Shown: in pieces, positions 2,773 through 13,549 of the stretch
Numbering within the stretch: position 1 is the first letter of the stretch
How the letters are laid out: the number at the start of each line of letters is the position of its first letter
Source: a virus
IMG/VR virus record: IMGVR_UViG_3300025120_000614
Location: 1-22,566 of that record
DNA: 22,566 nucleotides
Reading direction: 5' to 3' (one strand)
Notes under the pieces: generated by a model
Told to the model about the DNA's origin: nothing
Database searches by the model: none
What the model saw: only the letters and a program-made list of their open reading frames with translations
Program-made: the position numbers and the translations under genes

Positions 2773-3075
2773 TCAAACCTCGGCATCTGGGGCGTCCTTA
2801 CTCGAAAATTCTCCACCCAGAGAAGAGTACGCTGCCTTGTCTACCCACGAGTCTGAGTGATCTATTTTGTTTAGGATACGCGAAGTTTTTAGCCAGTCCA
2901 TCATTAATGCAACATGCGTAGGGGTAATCTCCCCGTGTGATATAAGTGCGCTGCGCAAAATAATATTCCAACCCTCTGCAATTCTGTCGTGATTGTCGTA
3001 AGCCTCACCATAGTCTTTGGCCCTTTCGCCATTGACTAGACTTTCTGCTTGCCTCAAGAACTCTTCTCTTTTCAA
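2773..3075 (-). CDS. DUF6378-like phage protein (TTG start)
   Basis: About 100 residues resembling the DUF6378 family common in phage genomes: ERAKDYGEAYDNHDRIAEGW, then GEITPTHVALMMDWLKTSRI, then HSDSWVDKAAY. The molecular role is unknown to me. The all-helical pattern with conserved E, D and H residues recalls MazG-like nucleotide hydrolases, which is only a loose inference. The frame is open upstream to 3132, but TTG at 3075 is the better start: AGGAG ends eight bases before it, it overlaps the helicase stop as TTGA, and family similarity begins right after it. Confidence 0.72.
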   Translation of the reverse strand: MKREEFLRQAESLVNGERAKDYGEAYDNHDRIAEGWNIILRSALISHGEITPTHVALMMDWLKTSRILNKIDHSDSWVDKAAYSSLGGEFSSKDAPDAEV

Positions 3076-4748
3076 TGTAATTTCTCCTGCGCTGCATGAA
3101 ACGCTTTGCCTAGAGCGTCTTTGTTCCAACAAAAACTCAAAGCACAGCCTGCTTTGTATTTAGTCCACGAGAAGTCCATTGAACTGATATGAATGTCGTG
3201 ATCCATTAACAGGTTCTTTTGTTTCTCTGTGGCCCTGTTATTAAGCCAACGCTTCGTTTTATTTGCTGCATCGCTATCTTCAATCTCGCGTAAGAAATCA
3301 TCGGCTGCTGACATAGCATGCACTTTTTCACCAATCGCTACTGTGCGAACACGGCCTTTTTGTGATTTTACCATAGCGACCCACATATCATCTTTGATGT
3401 GACCTACAAAGGCGAATCCCTGAAAGCCCATAGCCATCAGTGCATTGCCCTCTTGAAATGGGCTAATCCACATGAAAGGTGATAACTGCATCAGATCGTA
3501 TTCAGTCATGATAAACTGTTCGAGCGCAGCTTTCTCTTCTGCTACAAACTCATGACCGCAGATCGGACACACTGTTAAACGCGCATGAACCTCTGCGTTG
3601 CATTCAGGACAAGTCTTTGTGGGTGCTTCGCCCTCAACCGTTTTGTCTCTTCCATCTAGGTTAGCTGCATCATCAATACTGCCATGCGTAATGACAGACG
3701 TACCAAAGTCCATAACGATGCAATCAGTCTTGATTGTGTCTGGATATAACTCAGGATCAACGATGCGTAGTCCACGACCAATCATCTGCACCATTGTACC
3801 CTTCTGAGAGCATGGGCGCGTTAGAATGATACAAGACACAGGTGGAGCATCAAACCCCTCTGTAAGCACCGCTACGTTGACCACAACCTGTAAATCACCA
3901 TGCTCAAGGTCATGGAGCATCTCTGCTCTTTTATCTTTTGGTGTTTCACCTGTTACAAAGTTTGCATCAACACCAGATTCAAGAAAGGCTGCACAAAGAT
4001 GTTCAGCGTGTTTGACTGTTGAACAGAACACAACAGTCTTGCGATCCCCTGCTTTTTCTTCCCATTCACGAACAATTCTATCGTTAATGACTTGGTGATC
4101 CATAATCGCGGCGACCTCTTCCATGTCATATTCTTTGCCGCGTTTTGTGACGTTATCTAATTGATCATTGATACCCAGATCGACCACAAAGGTTTTGGGC
4201 CGAACCAGAAATCCCTCTTGGATTAACGCACCGATTTCGATTTGATGTGCGCAGTTGTTGAACACAGAGCGCAATCCTTTGCCATCACCACGATTAGGTG
4301 TAGCTGTAAATCCTACAATCTCTGCACTGTCGTTGTCTTCAAGCACGGCATCAATCACACGGCGATACGTTCTTGCCGCTGCGTGATGGCCTTCATCAAT
4401 CACCACCATGTCGAACTTGGGGCGCTTGGCTAGGTTGCGTTCACGAGAAATAGTTTGCACCATTGAGAATACGGCATCGCCATCCCAATGCTTGACTGTA
4501 CCGTTCACAATACTTGTTGTGATGTACGGGTTCACCTTTTTGAACTTGGATTGGTTTTGCGCAACAAGTTCATCGCGGTGCTGCACGATAAGAATTTTTT
4601 TACCTTCTTTGTGCCGCTTGCCTACAAGCGCAGAAAGCATGATCGTTTTGCCTGCACCCGTTGGTGCAACGACTAGAGTATTGCCGTGTTTGTCGAGAGC
4701 TTTTAGAGCATCGCTTACGGCTACCTCTTGGTAGGGACGTAGTAACAT
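3072..4748 (-). CDS. Superfamily 2 DEAD/DEAH-type helicase with zinc ribbon
   Basis: ATP-dependent nucleic-acid helicase or translocase of the phage replication machinery (558 aa). Visible SF2 motifs, in order: Q-like motif LRPYQ at residue 3; Walker A APTGAGKT at 28-35; DEGHH from 118; TATP at 148-151; TEGFDAP at 296-302; and motif VI QMIGRGLR at 321-328. A four-Cys zinc ribbon follows (C380, C383, C394, C397) and then about 160 residues of unassigned C-terminal sequence, plausibly for DNA or partner binding. The architecture is that of phage UvsW/RAD25-like helicases. The ATG at 4748 has AGGTG upstream. Its stop is shared as TTGA with the next gene. Upstream lies the 92-bp structured gap, which would form part of its leader or separate it from the SSB-like gene. 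Confidence 0.9.
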   Translation of the reverse strand: MLLRPYQEVAVSDALKALDKHGNTLVVAPTGAGKTIMLSALVGKRHKEGKKILIVQHRDELVAQNQSKFKKVNPYITTSIVNGTVKHWDGDAVFSMVQTISRERNLAKRPKFDMVVIDEGHHAAARTYRRVIDAVLEDNDSAEIVGFTATPNRGDGKGLRSVFNNCAHQIEIGALIQEGFLVRPKTFVVDLGINDQLDNVTKRGKEYDMEEVAAIMDHQVINDRIVREWEEKAGDRKTVVFCSTVKHAEHLCAAFLESGVDANFVTGETPKDKRAEMLHDLEHGDLQVVVNVAVLTEGFDAPPVSCIILTRPCSQKGTMVQMIGRGLRIVDPELYPDTIKTDCIVMDFGTSVITHGSIDDAANLDGRDKTVEGEAPTKTCPECNAEVHARLTVCPICGHEFVAEEKAALEQFIMTEYDLMQLSPFMWISPFQEGNALMAMGFQGFAFVGHIKDDMWVAMVKSQKGRVRTVAIGEKVHAMSAADDFLREIEDSDAANKTKRWLNNRATEKQKNLLMDHDIHISSMDFSWTKYKAGCALSFCWNKDALGKAFHAAQEKLH

Positions 4749-4840
4749 AAAACACCTGTTCGCTAGAATTGGTGGGGGGATTGCGGCCCTCTGCCCCCCG
4801 GTCAGAGGTCTAGCAGGCGCGGATTGGCCCTGCCGCTAGA
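4749..4840. other. GC-rich, repeat-built, highly structured intergenic element
   Basis: A gap of 92 bases, far more GC-rich than its surroundings. On the plus strand it contains TCTAGC-A-GGC (4809-4818) opposite GCC-GCTAGA (4832-4840), a 9-bp stem with one bulge. It also contains CCTCTG (4788-4793) opposite CAGAGG (4803-4808), whose loop holds CCCCCC (4794-4799) complementary to GGGGGG (4774-4779). Stem plus loop pairing could form an H-type pseudoknot. Parts are repeated: GGATTG followed by GCCCT and GCC occurs at 4778-4795 and again at 4821-4834, and CCTG followed by CGCTAGA occurs at 4756-4767 and 4828-4840. No T tract follows on the minus strand, so it is not a simple terminator. Replication origin, RNA regulatory element or protein-binding site are all possible. 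Confidence 0.65.
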
Positions 4841-5464
4841 TTATCTTTGCGCCCAAGACGGAACACCACCAGACGATTGAGGCTGCGTAGGTGCAGCTTG
4901 CTGAGTGGTTTGCGCTGCTACAGGAGTCTGTTGCATTGGCGCTTGTCCGCTTGGAACGAATTCCCGCGAATTAGGTGTTAAAGCTACGGTCAAGCAATTG
5001 CTATCACTGTAGCCGTTAGTCCCTTTCTTAATACCAACTTTAGCACAAATTTCCATAGCATTTAAGTCAAAAACTCCAGAAATATTTCTTGCCTGTTGCG
5101 CTTCTGCCGAAACGTCCGCAGGATCAATGTTACGCGCACTCTCAACAAGTGATTTTAATGTGCGTAAACCAATCTCTTTGGCTTGTGGAATACCGCTTTG
5201 ACCCATCTTGTCACCATCGACAAAGACGCGATCCCAAAACTTACGGCGATCAAATTCACCACCAATAATGGTAAACTCAAGTTCCATCCACTTAGCCGCA
5301 GAAGTCGCTGACTTTTTAAACCAAGGTCCAGAACCAAATTCTGGAACTTCGGTGTCACCTTGCTTTACAAGGACAACTGCACGGCAAACTGTGCCTTTAG
5401 GAATTAAAGAAAACTCACGATCCTGTGGGTTATCATCGGCGGGTACGTTATTTAAATTAAGCAT
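4841..5464 (-). CDS. DUF669-like single-stranded DNA-binding protein
   Basis: Likely phage SSB-like protein protecting single strands during replication and recombination. The 207-residue product begins LNLNNVPADDNPQ and contains the block PKGTVCRAVVLVKQGDTEVP, followed by KWMELEFTIIGGEFDRRKFWDR, typical of DUF669 proteins. The body looks like a beta-rich OB-type fold. The last 40 residues are Gln/Pro/Ala-rich and flexible, ending PSWAQR, so the acidic tip of bacterial SSB is absent. The frame is open to 5509, but ATG at 5464 is preferred: GAGGA lies upstream, conserved sequence starts there, and it overlaps the stop of the upstream ATPase gene by 8 nt (ATGCTTAA). Sitting next to a Sak4-type ATPase supports a recombination role. 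Confidence 0.75.
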   Translation of the reverse strand: MLNLNNVPADDNPQDREFSLIPKGTVCRAVVLVKQGDTEVPEFGSGPWFKKSATSAAKWMELEFTIIGGEFDRRKFWDRVFVDGDKMGQSGIPQAKEIGLRTLKSLVESARNIDPADVSAEAQQARNISGVFDLNAMEICAKVGIKKGTNGYSDSNCLTVALTPNSREFVPSGQAPMQQTPVAAQTTQQAAPTQPQSSGGVPSWAQR

Positions 5465-7179: not shown

Positions 7180-7398
7180 ATGCCAAAACCTGAAAAATAC
7201 AAATCAGTCGGTATATCAATAGACGCGTATCAAAAACTGATCTTCATTGCCGATCAAGAAGATCGTGCTTTGGGTAGACAGTTATCACGCATGATTGAAG
7301 AATCATACGAAGATGTTCAGGAACGTGTCAATAGTAAGCGCGGCTATCAACCCGCTGCTGTAGGCATAGGCGGTATAACTACAGTCATCGAAGACTAG
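7180..7398 (+). CDS. Ribbon-helix-helix (Arc/CopG-type) transcriptional regulator
   Basis: The only rightward gene in the window (72 aa). Residues 7-13 (YKSVGIS) form the expected DNA-contacting beta strand. Helix A is about 14-28 (IDAYQKLIFIADQED), the turn is RALG, and helix B is about 33-46 (RQLSRMIEESYEDV), giving the RHH dimer fold. The C-terminal 20 residues are Gly-rich and probably flexible. The start has AAGGA seven bases before the ATG. It has its own promoter (7119-7147) and its own terminator (7423-7458), so it is a monocistronic unit. It stands at the junction of the virion and replication modules, and matching operators at both nearby promoters suggest it represses itself and the replication operon. 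An antirepressor or antitoxin-like role is a weaker alternative; no toxin gene is adjacent. Confidence 0.82.
   Translation: MPKPEKYKSVGISIDAYQKLIFIADQEDRALGRQLSRMIEESYEDVQERVNSKRGYQPAAVGIGGITTVIED
7395..7398. other. Shared CTAG giving both stop codons of convergent genes
   Basis: CTAG is its own reverse complement. Bases 7396-7398 read TAG for the rightward regulator, and 7397-7395 read TAG for the leftward virion gene. The two genes therefore end on the same four bases with no intergenic space. Confidence 0.9.
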
Positions 7399-10259
7399 AG
7401 AAGCCCTGCGTTACCTAAACCACCCAGTAGTGTTGCTGCCACTGCTGGGTTTTCTTTTGCGCGTTGTCGAATATTAGAAAAATCAGGAACGTCAGATATT
7501 TCTACCGGGGCAACATCAGGAACTGGCATAGTTGTTCGGCTTACTGGCGCTGGTACCGAAGATACTCTACGATTTTCTAAATCACGAGCTATATTGGAAG
7601 CGCCTTCTTTCATGGAACCTACAGTTCCTACGGCTACTCTCATACCTTGTTGTTTTGCAAAAGATTTACTGGTGTCGTTTAAAACTCTTAAAAACACTTG
7701 CATTTTACCAGCTTTAGTTTTTTCTTTTGCCGCTTCTTTTCCATACCGTGCTGCGAAAGATGTGTAGAACGGACCAGTAGACAAGAACTGACCGATTAGA
7801 CCAAGACGAGCAATTGTTCCTAAATTTTCTAATGGATTAGCAGCAATATTAGCCGCAACAAGATCACCGCCTTCAGCAGATGCGCCAAGAACTTTCATGT
7901 TTTGACCAAATAAAGCGATAGAATCAGCTTCTGCTTTAGGAAATAAAGCTCCTAGTTTACCAGATTTTTCAGCCCGTAAAAGGCGTTCTGATAATTGTTT
8001 AAAGGCTTTTTTGTCTGTCATAAAGCTATGCTCAAAATCACCTATAAGGTTTTGCATATAGTATGATTGTAACTCAGCTAACTCTTCAGGTTTATCTTTA
8101 AAAAACTTTGAAAGTTTTGTAATGTCATTACCTTTGACAGATGGGCTTGCCAACAAGTCTGCTGCTTCATCTGGCATCAATGATCCTGCACGAATTTTTC
8201 TAGCCATTGCCGCAGAATCAAACTGTGCTTTTTCTTTCATAATGTCTTTTACATTACGCAATAAATTCACACCAGCTTCGTCACCACCCTCTTCTACGAA
8301 ATCATCAATAACACTTTGATTTACTCTTGTTAAAGATAAAGTATCCATTTGGTCTGCCAGCCTACGAACTTCTGAAATTCGTGACCCGAACAATTCATCG
8401 GCTGTACCGCCTAAATCATCTAATTTTTGTTTAAATTTGCTTCCGCTAAATTTTCTTGTTGCATCTAAAGTTGAACCTGATTCACGCATTGTTTTACGCA
8501 ACCATTCAGAAGCCGCACGTTCTCTTAGCGTATTAAAAGCGTCTTTTCCTAAATTTTCCTCTAAAACTTTTTTAGCATCTTGAAGCAATTTTGGATTATC
8601 GTTTTGTATAAAACGACCATATGCACCTTTTGGGTTTAATTCTACGCCACCTTTAACAGAGTTTTGTAAACTTTTTATACTAGCCGCCGATGAAACTTTT
8701 TCAAAGCTGTCCATGCCTTGTTTAAAGAAACTACGAAGTTTTGGTATTTCATTAGAAACATCTTTAAAAAGTTTCTTTTGTTCGGCTGTTAAATCACCAG
8801 CCGCTTTTCTCCTCATAGCATTGTTGACAGAAGTAGGAGATATAAAATCATCTAGCTTATTGAGAAACTTGTCTTTCATTAACTTAACACTGTCAGAACC
8901 GTAGTTACCCATCCAAGTGTCATTAAGAGTTTTTCTAGCCTTGTATACTTGAGTAAAAGAAGCATCATCAGGTAATTGCATAAGCTCTCTTACAGCATCA
9001 CGAGATTTTCCAAGATTTCCTGATCCAGCCGCTACCAATCTATCAAGCTCTAATTGAGCGTCAGATTTTAATGCGCGAGTATTAAATAGCGCGGTATCAC
9101 CAACTGCACTGTTTGTTAAATTTTCAAGGTTAGCAAATTTTTCTTTTACTTTGTCATCAAAGGCTTTGTATGCGCCAACAAATGCCCCTTGTATGTCAGC
9201 GTTTAGTGCGTCATCTTTTTTTGCAGCTTTTCCTATTTGAACAGCAATGTCATCCATGTGTTTAATTAAATTATTAGATGCAGTCTTTTCAGCTTGAAGC
9301 AATGCATTATCACCCGCTGCTACAGCGTTTGTTAGAATAGCAGCAGTAGCATCTATATCTACACCACCATCAGCGCCATAAGCGCGTAACTTTGCCAAAT
9401 CTGACATAATCTTTTCATGATTTTGACGTAATCTAGCAGATGTACCTAGAGCCTTCTCACTCATTGCCTGTTGACGGGCTACAAGAGAATTAGCGCCCAT
9501 AGCAGATAATGAAGGCTTATAGCCAGATTTAATAGCAGTAGCGACCTCTTCCTGCGTTTGTGGAGCTAACTTGCTACCTGCACGACCACGACCTACTGCG
9601 AATCCAAAAGATTTGCCAATTGCACCAAATACACCTTCACCAGCAGCGGCTATAAGAGCTTCAGTACCAGCCGCCTTACCAACATCAAGAAGGCTTTCTT
9701 CCTGTGTCCCTCTTAGCGTTTCTACGCCTTCTTCGACTAACTTACCACCTCCAGCACCTAAACCTGCACCAATAGCAGCACCTAGTATTGGAATAGGAAT
9801 TGCAGCCTGTCCTGCTATAGCACCGCCAATACCACCTACAATTTCTTCACCAGCCGCGCCTACAAAGTCTTGTAAATCAGACAAAGTAAACCCGCTTTCA
9901 TCAATCATAATCGGCTTGTCAGTCTCTATGCCAAGCAAAAGTGCGCCTTTTGGAGTGATCGCTAAGTCTCCACGATCATCTCTCATATAATCGCCTTCTC
10001 TAAAACCATAGCGACCTAAGACATTTTCTTCTTCTTTTTCTGTCTCAGCGCCTGCTAACTGGCGTCTTAGGCGATTATTTTTTATTCCAGTTTCTCTGTC
10101 TATTGGTGTTTCATCTCTAATGGCTAATGGTGAAACTGAACGTTCCATTTTTTTAATTAAACGTTCGGCTTGCAACATTTCAGGATACGTTGGTTTTTCT
10201 CCTTTAATTTCAAAAGGAATAAACTCGCCGGGTCTAATTTCAAGTTGAATTTCAGGCAT
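7395..10259 (-). CDS. Large internal virion / ejection-type protein
   Basis: A 954-residue protein, probably an inner-virion protein released with the DNA. After a polar N-terminus (to about 125) comes a Gly/Ala-rich zipper-like stretch at about 132-225, with repeated GxxxG spacing (GGIGGAIAG, GAAIGAGLGAGGG). Such stretches are typical of membrane-inserting ejection or tape-measure proteins. Most of the remainder is long charged helix with coiled-coil character, and a Pro-rich tail (APVSRTTMPVPDVAPVE) lies near the C-terminus. No lytic transglycosylase or protease motif was recognised. It is the last gene of the structural block, as for gp16-like ejection proteins of short-tailed phages. ATG at 10259 has AGGA upstream. 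It ends in the CTAG that also gives the stop of the convergent regulator gene. The assignment is from composition and position only. Confidence 0.6.
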   Translation of the reverse strand: MPEIQLEIRPGEFIPFEIKGEKPTYPEMLQAERLIKKMERSVSPLAIRDETPIDRETGIKNNRLRRQLAGAETEKEEENVLGRYGFREGDYMRDDRGDLAITPKGALLLGIETDKPIMIDESGFTLSDLQDFVGAAGEEIVGGIGGAIAGQAAIPIPILGAAIGAGLGAGGGKLVEEGVETLRGTQEESLLDVGKAAGTEALIAAAGEGVFGAIGKSFGFAVGRGRAGSKLAPQTQEEVATAIKSGYKPSLSAMGANSLVARQQAMSEKALGTSARLRQNHEKIMSDLAKLRAYGADGGVDIDATAAILTNAVAAGDNALLQAEKTASNNLIKHMDDIAVQIGKAAKKDDALNADIQGAFVGAYKAFDDKVKEKFANLENLTNSAVGDTALFNTRALKSDAQLELDRLVAAGSGNLGKSRDAVRELMQLPDDASFTQVYKARKTLNDTWMGNYGSDSVKLMKDKFLNKLDDFISPTSVNNAMRRKAAGDLTAEQKKLFKDVSNEIPKLRSFFKQGMDSFEKVSSAASIKSLQNSVKGGVELNPKGAYGRFIQNDNPKLLQDAKKVLEENLGKDAFNTLRERAASEWLRKTMRESGSTLDATRKFSGSKFKQKLDDLGGTADELFGSRISEVRRLADQMDTLSLTRVNQSVIDDFVEEGGDEAGVNLLRNVKDIMKEKAQFDSAAMARKIRAGSLMPDEAADLLASPSVKGNDITKLSKFFKDKPEELAELQSYYMQNLIGDFEHSFMTDKKAFKQLSERLLRAEKSGKLGALFPKAEADSIALFGQNMKVLGASAEGGDLVAANIAANPLENLGTIARLGLIGQFLSTGPFYTSFAARYGKEAAKEKTKAGKMQVFLRVLNDTSKSFAKQQGMRVAVGTVGSMKEGASNIARDLENRRVSSVPAPVSRTTMPVPDVAPVEISDVPDFSNIRQRAKENPAVAATLLGGLGNAGLL
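7423..7458 (+). terminator. Intrinsic terminator of the regulator gene, inside the opposing gene
   Basis: CCCAGTAGTG (7423-7432) pairs with CACTGCTGGG (7440-7449) in a 10-bp stem with one G-U pair and a 7-nt loop, followed by TTTTCTTTT (7450-7458). It begins 24 bases after the regulator's stop codon. The bases also encode PAVAATLLGG of the opposing virion protein. There is no T run in the leftward direction, so it is one-directional. Confidence 0.8.
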
Positions 10260-10261
10260 TG

Positions 10262-12241
10262 CTATTTCCTAACTAACTTACCATCCACAAATACAAGTGA
10301 ACCTAATCCTTTTAAGTCTTCAAAAGTACCATACTTTTCAACAATGTTATCGTAAGTTCCTTCTTGGTGATTAGATGGATCAAGCAAATCTTCAAGAGCA
10401 TTGTCAAAATCATTTTGTTTTGCACCAAAAATTTGATCAAGGCCATCAAGAGCATTCAATGTTGCATCAAGGTTTGTAAAGAAACCAATGTTACCCATCA
10501 AATCATCTGTCCACATTTCAACGTCACGATTTGAAATGCCGTTACCAGTCTCTTGTGTAAGGAAACGCTTGTATTGGTTAAGTAGCTTTTTAGTTTCGTA
10601 GTTATAGTCCTCGACATCGGTTGGTTCACCCGTTAAATACTGTGATGGAGCAATAGCTTTCATCAAACCGTGTAGCTTTTGATATGCTACCTGCACAGTA
10701 CCACCGCCCTCTGCAATTTCAGTTGCAGTTGTACGCAATGCTGAAATTGTTTCACGCGCGTCAACAACGCCATCACGACCTAAAACATGCTTACGAATTG
10801 CAGCTTCAGGTTTTAAATAAAAGCCGCCATTCGGGTTTTTGGAATCATAGACATATGGTATTTTCCATGAATCTGACGAACCCTGTCCGTCCACAAACTT
10901 ACGATCTTTGGTTTTGCTGTAATCACCACCAGTTGTTTGAGCCTTCAAAATTTCTAACTGTGCATCTATATTTGCTTTGGAGTCTTGTTCTTTCATTTTT
11001 AAGTCAGAGGCATACCATTTAAGGTAAATTTCTTTTTGAAAATCTTTATTGGCTGATGCTGATGCTAATTCAGCATCAACATCTGCTCGACGTTGTTGCA
11101 ATGCATATTTACCCGCTGCAAGTTGAGCAGCTTTTGAATCCGCAGTTGCTTTATCTAAATACGGCATAGCAGCCTCACCTGCTTCGCCAAGTGCTTCAAG
11201 CGCACCACTAAACCCTTTACCACCTGCTTTATTCTTTAATAAAGCAAGACCCCAAGCCTGTAACGCACGACTTTTATCAATTTTGCCACTTGCATCTATT
11301 CCTGTAGCTTCTTCAAATTCTTTTCTATAACGAGCTATAGCGTCTTTTTTTGACTCACTTTTACGAGGCGGAGAGTCTGATACATCTTTCATAGCTGCAA
11401 AAAATGCATTATAAGCAGCGTCAGGTCCAAGAGAAATACTTTTTCCTCCTGTATCTTTAGCATTTTTTTCTTTTTGAGCTTTTAAATATGCTGCCCGTTC
11501 ACCGGGTTTTTCTACAATATCTCCACGACCACCTGTCAATATAGCCTCTAAAGTTTCCGCAGGACTTGGCGCAGCATCTTCTAACTTTGGTTCTATTTTT
11601 TTATCTTTAGGTTTAGCATCTAGCCTAGTAAGAAGCTCCCCAATTTCGTCCAAAGCAGATGGTTGAAATGCAGCTTCTTCTCCAAGCAATTCTCGTGGAG
11701 CAAGAAGTGCTGCTTCATTTGCAAGAATTTCACGCTCAGTTATGTTTCCAACGTTTTCAAATCGACCCGGAACTGCCATATCTTGTATAGAACGATAAGC
11801 CTTTTCCATTTCTGAAATATCTTCTTTGCCAAAACCAAACTGTTGACCGCCTTTAGACATAAAAGGGCCACCACCACCGAAAAACCCACCTTCGTCTGGA
11901 ACCAAGCCTTCGATTGGTATAGATAAACCTTCATTTTCCATAGTTCTTTCAGATAGATCGTTTAAATATGCCCCAAGAGCGTCTTGGTTTTTAAAATCAA
12001 GATTATTTTTTAACTCTTCAAATGCATAATAACGACTACCCGGCCCTCTTGGAATCTGAACAAATGTTCCCGCTGCTTCGGGTCCTTCTGCTGCAAAAAG
12101 ACTTCTAAGATTTGCAGCTTGTTGTGGTCCTGTAAGTGCTTTTTGTTTATAGCCTAAACCTTGGTTTAACACATTTTTGCGAGTAGGATTGTTTTCGCTA
12201 TATCTTTGCGCTACCTGATTATATCTTTCTTCGGGAGTCAT
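10262..12241 (-). CDS. Probable internal virion protein, unknown family
   Basis: A 659-residue protein, not recognised. It begins TPEERYNQVAQRYSENNPTRKNVLNQG, has a Gly-rich patch (GGFFGGGGPFMSKGGQQFGFGKED) at about 160-185, and contains long charged helices (KEKNAKDTGGK, KKDAIARYRKEFEEATG). No membrane segment or enzyme motif is evident. The frame extends two codons upstream to a GTG at 12247. ATG at 12241 is preferred because AGAGG lies five bases before it, making the GTG part of the ribosome site region. It sits between two other Gly/Ala-rich virion-type genes (6-12 nt and 2 nt spacing), so a shared role in the inner virion or DNA ejection is inferred. Confidence 0.55.
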   Translation of the reverse strand: MTPEERYNQVAQRYSENNPTRKNVLNQGLGYKQKALTGPQQAANLRSLFAAEGPEAAGTFVQIPRGPGSRYYAFEELKNNLDFKNQDALGAYLNDLSERTMENEGLSIPIEGLVPDEGGFFGGGGPFMSKGGQQFGFGKEDISEMEKAYRSIQDMAVPGRFENVGNITEREILANEAALLAPRELLGEEAAFQPSALDEIGELLTRLDAKPKDKKIEPKLEDAAPSPAETLEAILTGGRGDIVEKPGERAAYLKAQKEKNAKDTGGKSISLGPDAAYNAFFAAMKDVSDSPPRKSESKKDAIARYRKEFEEATGIDASGKIDKSRALQAWGLALLKNKAGGKGFSGALEALGEAGEAAMPYLDKATADSKAAQLAAGKYALQQRRADVDAELASASANKDFQKEIYLKWYASDLKMKEQDSKANIDAQLEILKAQTTGGDYSKTKDRKFVDGQGSSDSWKIPYVYDSKNPNGGFYLKPEAAIRKHVLGRDGVVDARETISALRTTATEIAEGGGTVQVAYQKLHGLMKAIAPSQYLTGEPTDVEDYNYETKKLLNQYKRFLTQETGNGISNRDVEMWTDDLMGNIGFFTNLDATLNALDGLDQIFGAKQNDFDNALEDLLDPSNHQEGTYDNIVEKYGTFEDLKGLGSLVFVDGKLVRK

Positions 12242-12253
12242 AGGCACCTCTTG

Positions 12254-13549
12254 TTAACCGCTAAAACCTTGCATTGTTGAATACGCTCCAACACCCTGCA
12301 AGAATGGGTCTGCTGATGTTTGTGGACCTTGTGTATATTGACTATACATAGACGCCGATGGCGCTCCAGTTAGGAAGTTCTGTGCGTAGCTAAACGGAGC
12401 AAGTGCTTGCTGTGTTGTGTTTAATGTATTTTGACGCGTAAAGTCCTGTCCTTGTTGAGCGTACTGACGTTCTTTGCCACCAAGCTCATACATAAAGCCA
12501 AGGTCAGCAGGTTGCATGCCTGCATACACACGACCAATATCAGCAGATGTACCCGCTAATTTGCCATAGGCTTGACCTACATCAGCTTGCGCACCGCCTA
12601 ACTGACCGTATGTTTGTCCTAATCCACCTGTAAGGCGTCCTGCCTCTAGGTCACGTTTCTTTTCGTTTTCAGCGGCCCCTAAACCACGTTTGGCTGCATC
12701 CTCAAAGGCACTTGATTCTAAAGTTGCTCCAGATGCACCCAACTTACCTGTAAGACCAGAGGCTTGTAATGCACGTTTGCGCTCTGCTTCGTCTGTAGCC
12801 ATCGCATTTGCCATCGACTTATCATAGCCCTTTGACAAAAGGTTGGCGATAGTACCTTGCTTGGTTTCTTCAATAGCGCGTTGCGTTTCTGCGGCCTGAA
12901 TGCCTGAACGAGAGCCACCAAAAGCACCTGCGCCAACTGCCCTAGCTTGATCAGCTTGACGTTGCTGCGCACCCTCACGGGTAATTTTCTTCATAGCAGA
13001 GTCAATGACCTGCTGCTTGTAAGGGTCCATAAAGTCTTCAACTGAGCTTGGATCGAAGCTACCAAGACCCTGTTCAGCTAACTCAAATGCACGGCCTGTT
13101 CTGCGGTCAAATGCTTCTTTAGCGCCAAACTGACCACCTGCATCAACAGAACCGCGTCCAGCTTCTAAAGCTGATTTGGCATCTGGGAAGTAATCAGTAA
13201 GAGCTTTTGCCATAGTAGCTTGGCCCGTGCCTAAACCACTTGCTGCGTCAGGTAAGTAACGAGGAGTTCCTGATGCGTCTTGAAAATAAGGTAGGTAACG
13301 ATCCATAAACTGTTGACGTTGCGTTGCATCGCCAAGTGTACTTGTTACGGCTGACTGAAGAGGATCAGTGCCTGCTTGAACATAATCTGGAATTTTAAAT
13401 AAATCAGGGTATTTAGTTGCGTCTAAAATGCCACCCGAAAGAGTGCCACTCCCGTCATCTTGCCCAAATATCTTACCAAGTAAGGCTAAATCTAAGTCTT
13501 GAATATATTGTGGACGAGAAGTTATTACGTTTTGTGTGGTTTCAGTCAT
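12254..13549 (-). CDS. Ala/Gly-rich virion-associated protein, probable internal protein
   Basis: A 431-residue protein. The central block GAQQRQADQARAVGAGAFGGSRSGIQAAETQRAIEE and the following Ala/Gly/Gln-rich helical stretches (GLTGKLGASGATLESSAFEDAAKRGLGAAEN, GLGQTYGQLGGAQADVGQAYGKLAGTSADIG) are of a kind I associate with inner-virion proteins of marine podovirus-like phages. The repeated G-x-L-x(2-3)-A pattern suggests amphipathic helices that may insert or assemble. The C-terminus is Gln/Tyr-rich and low in charge. ATG at 13549 overlaps the stop of the upstream gene (TAATG). Function is inferred from composition and position. Confidence 0.6.
   Translation of the reverse strand: MTETTQNVITSRPQYIQDLDLALLGKIFGQDDGSGTLSGGILDATKYPDLFKIPDYVQAGTDPLQSAVTSTLGDATQRQQFMDRYLPYFQDASGTPRYLPDAASGLGTGQATMAKALTDYFPDAKSALEAGRGSVDAGGQFGAKEAFDRRTGRAFELAEQGLGSFDPSSVEDFMDPYKQQVIDSAMKKITREGAQQRQADQARAVGAGAFGGSRSGIQAAETQRAIEETKQGTIANLLSKGYDKSMANAMATDEAERKRALQASGLTGKLGASGATLESSAFEDAAKRGLGAAENEKKRDLEAGRLTGGLGQTYGQLGGAQADVGQAYGKLAGTSADIGRVYAGMQPADLGFMYELGGKERQYAQQGQDFTRQNTLNTTQQALAPFSYAQNFLTGAPSASMYSQYTQGPQTSADPFLQGVGAYSTMQGFSG

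Follow-up and report, generated by a model that had tools for sequence, protein, structure and literature searches.

Phage T4 gp32 binds a pseudoknot that precedes an unstructured A+U-rich ribosome-binding site, and gp5 of phage M13 represses the message of another gene, as described in two sources (PMC535899, PMC3014915). The first source also places the homing endonuclease gene segG next to the gene 32 pseudoknot of T4 (PMC535899). The locus considered here belongs to a virus record of 22,566 nt from IMG/VR, the whole of which is called the window below. As in the gene 32 operators of T4 and RB69, an mRNA of phage replication genes is concerned and an SSB gene is involved. As in T4, a pseudoknot is located 5' of a Shine-Dalgarno sequence with an A+U-rich unstructured stretch between them, and an endonuclease gene, segG in T4 and a PDDEXK_14 gene in some genomes of the present group, is found nearby. 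However, the T4 pseudoknot consists of about 28 nt and precedes the SSB gene, whereas here an interlocked core of 67 nt follows an SSB-like gene and precedes a helicase or nuclease gene. The T4 operator is bound by gp32, while binding of the element by the SSB-like protein is putative, the OB fold of this protein being predicted.

Three other groups of structured RNAs resemble the element in part. In HDV-like ribozymes the helices follow one another as a b c c' a' d d' b' (helix names as in Table 1), and this order, shared with the phage theta ribozymes, was found in all parsed cores of the present element. These ribozymes are termed 'nested double-pseudoknotted' and have a catalytic C at the first position of the J4/2 junction (PMC10879173). 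Unlike HDV-like and theta ribozymes, the element has an additional pseudoknot e, no tRNA was found in the window and there is no match in Rfam. Recoding pseudoknots also occur just 3' of a stop codon, but here no conserved extension frame accompanies the knot. The intergenic IRES of dicistroviruses is also a triple pseudoknot in a viral intergenic region (PMC9458429), but at the present locus a Shine-Dalgarno sequence and AUG are present, the size and host differ, and no homology is claimed.

The gap between the two genes of the window (4749-4840) extends exactly from the stop codon of the SSB-like gene to the ATG of the helicase gene, both being on the minus strand. GC content is 0.62 in 4748-4840 and 0.35-0.52 in 500-nt windows. 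The GC-rich gap between an SSB-like and a helicase gene, reported in a preliminary description of this DNA, is exact in its coordinates. The fold energy of the gap is ordinary (z -0.82 for the plus strand and -0.51 for the minus strand), and the case for more than chance comes from comparison of relatives. The Shine-Dalgarno-like motif of the helicase gene lies about 20 nt downstream of the core. Elsewhere in the window, the minus strand of 7395-13549 encodes three large proteins (954, 661 and 431 aa) with no PHROGs match at E 0.001.

Table 1. Features of the element and flanking genes in the window; numbers in brackets are core positions, position 1 being window base 4840, and A4 is the structure-blind alignment.
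Feature	Position	Strand	Evidence or remark
SSB-like gene	4841..5464	-	PHROG 2300, predicted OB fold
Pseudoknotted RNA core, 67 nt, from first base after SSB-like stop codon	4774..4840	-	conserved in at least 66 distinct cores
a, UCUAGC (1-6), 5' strand, partner a' (27-32)	4835..4840	-	outer four pairs form in 96.4% of A4 cells
b, GCGGC (5-9), 5' strand of b, a pseudoknot helix with GGC as its core	4832..4836	-	compensated variants CGAC/GTCG, TGGC/GCCA, CGC/GCG
A10, unpaired, between b and c	4831..4831	-	invariant in A4; 0 changes on tree
c hairpin, 11-14 with 23-26, 8-nt loop	4815..4830	-	varied yet pairable
a', GCUAGA (27-32), most conserved segment, partner a or a''	4809..4814	-	0.17 changes per column
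d, CCUCUG (33-38), 5' strand	4803..4808	-	26 double compensatory events, 0 breaks in helix d
e, GGGGGG (42-47), in d loop, 5' strand of pseudoknot e	4794..4799	-	99.5% paired in A4
d', CAGAGG (48-53)	4788..4793	-	helix d compensations
b', GCCGC (54-58), directly 3' of d'	4783..4787	-	compensated b/b' variants
e', CCCCCC (62-67)	4774..4779	-	partner of e
a'', UUCUAGC (73-79), third copy of a, just 5' of Shine-Dalgarno	4762..4768	-	complementary to a'
AGGUG, Shine-Dalgarno-like, of helicase	4753..4757	-	sequence; AGG-type motif in 57/66 tails
Helicase gene (ResIII / Helicase_C)	3072..4748	-	domain matches

The SSB-like protein belongs to a PHROG listed as of unknown function and has no Pfam match. 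Its fold was predicted with a mean pLDDT of 72.9, and the best match of the model among solved structures is PrgE of pCF10 (E 4e-5), which we take to be an OB-fold SSB. Matches of the model among viral structures include DUF669 proteins and an SSB, and it seems likely from these predictions that the protein has an OB fold. A sequence search of the PDB gave only weak matches to triosephosphate isomerase, which were disregarded.

Relatives were collected from IMG/VR using the helicase and SSB-like proteins as queries, which gave 145 sequences with both genes and 49 distinct gaps. The set was widened with a profile of distant SSB-like proteins to 406 sequences carrying the SSB-like gene; 22 of them, with less than 100 nt downstream, were left out. 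All the remaining loci (384/384) have the element immediately downstream of the SSB-like stop codon, parse into the same helices and represent 53 distinct cores, the loci being redundant because the same contig was often fetched repeatedly. Gene-independent pattern scans added further loci, and the total then comprised at least 66 distinct cores and at least 472 loci of the CTAG-type element, corresponding to 156 distinct 300-nt windows.

The position of the element is nearly constant. It starts 0-3 nt past a stop codon in 467 of the 472 loci (other five undetermined), and the SSB-like gene is upstream in 463, the other nine having less than 140 nt of upstream sequence (less than 100 nt in seven, 112 and 139 nt in two). 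Downstream, the helicase gene was found in 396 loci, a PDDEXK_14 nuclease gene in 54 and too little sequence in 22. The nuclease gene, encoding 138 aa, is inserted directly 3' of a'' (54/450 loci with a classified downstream gene, or 19/156 distinct windows; examples are L110, L094, L081, L060 and L131), and where it separates the helicase gene from the junction, the element remains with the SSB-like gene. Searches of 16 records over their full length revealed a single convincing copy per record (16/16); two further matches at E about 0.6 were taken as chance.

The order of the helices, a-b-c-c'-a'-d-e-d'-b'-e', is that of interlocked pseudoknots, the third knot being formed by the G-run in the d loop with the downstream C-run. 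Bases 5-6, the last two of a, are able to join either a/a' or b/b'. In helix c, a register shift in a distant clade and a change of the innermost pair from C-G to U-A were observed. The preliminary description had listed a 9-bp bulged stem, a 6-bp stem with a C-run loop, a G-run outside it (4774-4779 on the plus strand) and two duplicated blocks, and all of these are present in the gap. Pairing of the loop with the outer run is upheld, but the plus strand had been read, and in the sense RNA (minus strand) the loop is GGGGGG and its partner CCCCCC. The bulged stem competes with the better-supported pseudoknot GGC (7-9)/GCC (54-56). The conserved repeats a and a'' correspond to one of the duplications, CCTG..CGCTAGA. 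The other, GGATTG..GCC, is probably incidental and falls in part within a loop that distant relatives have not kept. Internal duplication is mostly not the main point.

Compensatory changes, counted on the SSB-gene tree of the 53 cores, are most numerous in helix d (Table 1). The inner six pairs of helix e show six compensatory double changes, no single changes and no breaks, and helix b shows three pairing-preserving double changes and three single breaks. Helix c has two compensatory double changes, four single breaks and one double break; helix a has one compensatory double change and seven single breaks, most of which fall on the open end of the helix. Since helix a is nearly invariant, it is beyond the reach of covariation, though its sequence fits pairing. 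In a tree-based covariation null, E values of 0.1 or less were obtained for d3, d4, d5 and d6 only; the pairs of e, b, c and a missed this level because they vary too little.

In A4, 87.7% of cells are paired against 44-56% with slid partners, and the covariation score is attained by 0/500 shuffles. In another alignment (A5), made by a model knowing a, c and d only, helices b and e together are paired in 83.1% of cells against 51-75% when slid, and again 0/500 shuffles attain the score. Taken singly in A5, e is paired in 96.9% and b in 66.3%; the distant clade has lost the outer pairs of b, and in some rows the register is off by one base. The b strand and the bases following d' co-vary beyond permutations (p 0.004, 17 distinct combinations), and the combinations seen include CGGC/GCCG along with the variants of Table 1. 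Helix e was located by pairing in the curated alignment, so its register there is structure-guided, and the structure-blind A4 agrees with it; conservation does not extend to an optional seventh pair of this helix. Covariation among aligned homologous gaps, the check proposed in the preliminary description, brought to light compensatory double changes in the helices d, e and b.

In the sense reading, the core pairs include 28 G-U against 3 A-C, the latter being G-U when read from the opposite strand. From this excess, selection has most likely acted on the sense RNA. Summarizing the comparative data, it may be concluded that the gap contains a real, conserved structured RNA read from the minus strand in the direction of the genes, as confirmed by comparison of sequences.

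Changes per column on the tree amount to 2.6 in the core, compared with 4.5, 3.0 and 12.3 for SSB codon positions 1, 2 and 3. Strand a' is far more conserved than a, with 2.0 changes per column in the latter, as is expected if a' serves two competing partners. Of the 66 distinct tails, 61 contain a stretch of 5 nt or more complementary to a', compared with about four expected in shuffled tails, and the spacer before a'' varies from 3 to 13 nt. Column counts for a'' were anchored on TAG and are therefore partly circular, and the complementarity of a' and a'' owes something to common descent. Since a'' is absent or shortened in five of the 66 tails (L137, L145, L148, L425 and L455), a switch between the two partners would not be universal. 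The distinct tails (66) have a mean A+U content of 0.65; a hairpin hiding the Shine-Dalgarno sequence within them was considered and rejected, local fold z being mostly near 0. L455, L137 and L145 have kept the knot and lost the third UCUAG copy, and they represent natural tests of the switch idea.

Comparison of the loci demonstrates a sense RNA that is knotted and has a constant place between the stop codon and the Shine-Dalgarno sequence. The best explanation of this element of a phage replication-operon mRNA is, in our opinion, a switch acting in cis on translation of the gene that follows the SSB-like gene, a reading to which we give slightly less than an even chance. The structured leader of the helicase gene suggested earlier holds as regards structure, and its control of translation is what we infer. 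Strand a' would pair with one of two partners, a adjoining the SSB-like stop codon and a'' adjoining the Shine-Dalgarno sequence, and the choice would be biased by a ribosome that has reached this stop codon or by SSB-like protein on the knot. The footprint of a ribosome at this stop codon would presumably cover a and b, and a' would then be left free for a''. As an alternative trigger, the SSB-like protein may bind the knot, as gp32 of T4 does in its own leader (PMC535899, PMC3014915). Synthesis of the helicase would thereby follow either synthesis of the SSB-like protein or its free amount. The stronger conservation of a' than of a and the retention of a'' despite variable spacing favour the switch, as do the constant place after the stop codon, the compensatory changes, the sense-strand G-U pairs, the predicted OB fold of the SSB-like protein and the T4 and M13 precedents. 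The persistence of the element beside the SSB-like gene where the nuclease gene is inserted speaks less for it, as a role in the 3' end of the SSB mRNA would suit this equally. The SSB-helicase junction is a site where post-transcriptional control of replication genes would be expected, and the element, if this reading is true, would represent an independent case of different architecture that can be tested.

The main rival is a role in mRNA stability, which we consider unlikely. The knot would block exonucleases and protect the 3' end of the SSB-like mRNA or a processed RNA, so that much SSB and little helicase would be made. Such a barrier is favoured by the compactness of the knot, with its few conserved unpaired bases, and by its invariable location where the SSB-like gene ends, whatever gene comes next, but it leaves unexplained both the conservation of a'' beside the Shine-Dalgarno sequence and the exact placement at the stop codon. 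A riboswitch or another leader of the aptamer type, responding to a small molecule or a host factor, is still less probable: a knotted fold before a Shine-Dalgarno sequence with an alternative pairing is what such a leader would have, but conserved unpaired bases are few (A10 is invariant and the c loop variable), the contexts are of phage type only, and Rfam yielded nothing at E up to 10.

Self-cleavage of the operon mRNA by a ribozyme of HDV-like topology appears very improbable from the sequences compared, despite the common helix order. Neither the junction that should hold the catalytic C nor a C at this place is conserved, b' being 0 nt from d' in most of the 66 cores; a single nt between them, where present, may be C, G or A, and the register of three rows is ambiguous. 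The G1 of HDV P1 at the cleavage site has no counterpart either, since the first base of a is U in 42/53 cores and G in 4/53, and no HDV family of Rfam was matched. With the catalytic features absent, the element illustrates that HDV-type topology occurs without them. A replication origin acting as DNA, raised in the preliminary description, or a priming site of this kind is hardly credible: a single copy per record and a location among replication genes would suit it, but the G-U pairs fit sense RNA, and this fragment record has no skew flip at the gap and no iteron-type repeats.

Two further candidates were rejected. Readthrough or frameshifting disagrees with the 47 distinct gaps, whose lengths fall in all three frames with no conserved extension frame (10 open frames among 141; in-frame extensions of 0-34 aa). 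An intrinsic terminator, i.e., a GC-rich hairpin with a T-run, was not found on the minus strand in 4500-5100, which agrees with the initial view that the element is not a T-tailed terminator.

With E up to 10 allowed, Rfam 15 gave 0 matches for this region of the window and for L137, and none was found at the gathering score in the whole window or in five diverse loci. Among open-licence papers on structured RNAs, pseudoknots and phages, no title or opening of an abstract describing the element was found. The initial suggestion of a pseudoknotted RNA element, possibly of a new kind, is supported in its structural part by compensatory changes, fixed position and the lack of an Rfam match, and a well-supported structured RNA outside Rfam exists in a common group of uncultured phages. 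The fullest form of our reading, a new non-catalytic RNA family that combines HDV topology with a third pseudoknot and acts in a large uncultured phage group as a partner switch of the nearly invariant GCUAGA gated by the ribosome or the SSB-like protein, is rather doubtful as a whole.

A 501-nt query gave no match among cultured phages, and no match to the element was found in plasmids. With the 92-nt DNA as query, the only match among cultured phages was partial (55%), in Caulobacter phage CcrSC at E 0.07, and was taken as chance. Judged by eye, the GenBank sequence MW202473, with a helicase relative of 35% identity, has a different gap without the element, and AcaML1, with an SSB-like protein 28% identical, has no such element after its SSB-like gene; MW202478 has another gene order. 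A scan of a genome collection revealed two contigs with the element, L277 and L278, in metagenome bins of Thalassolituus and Rhodobacteraceae. These contigs are the sole hints of a host, and both carry the nuclease insertion.
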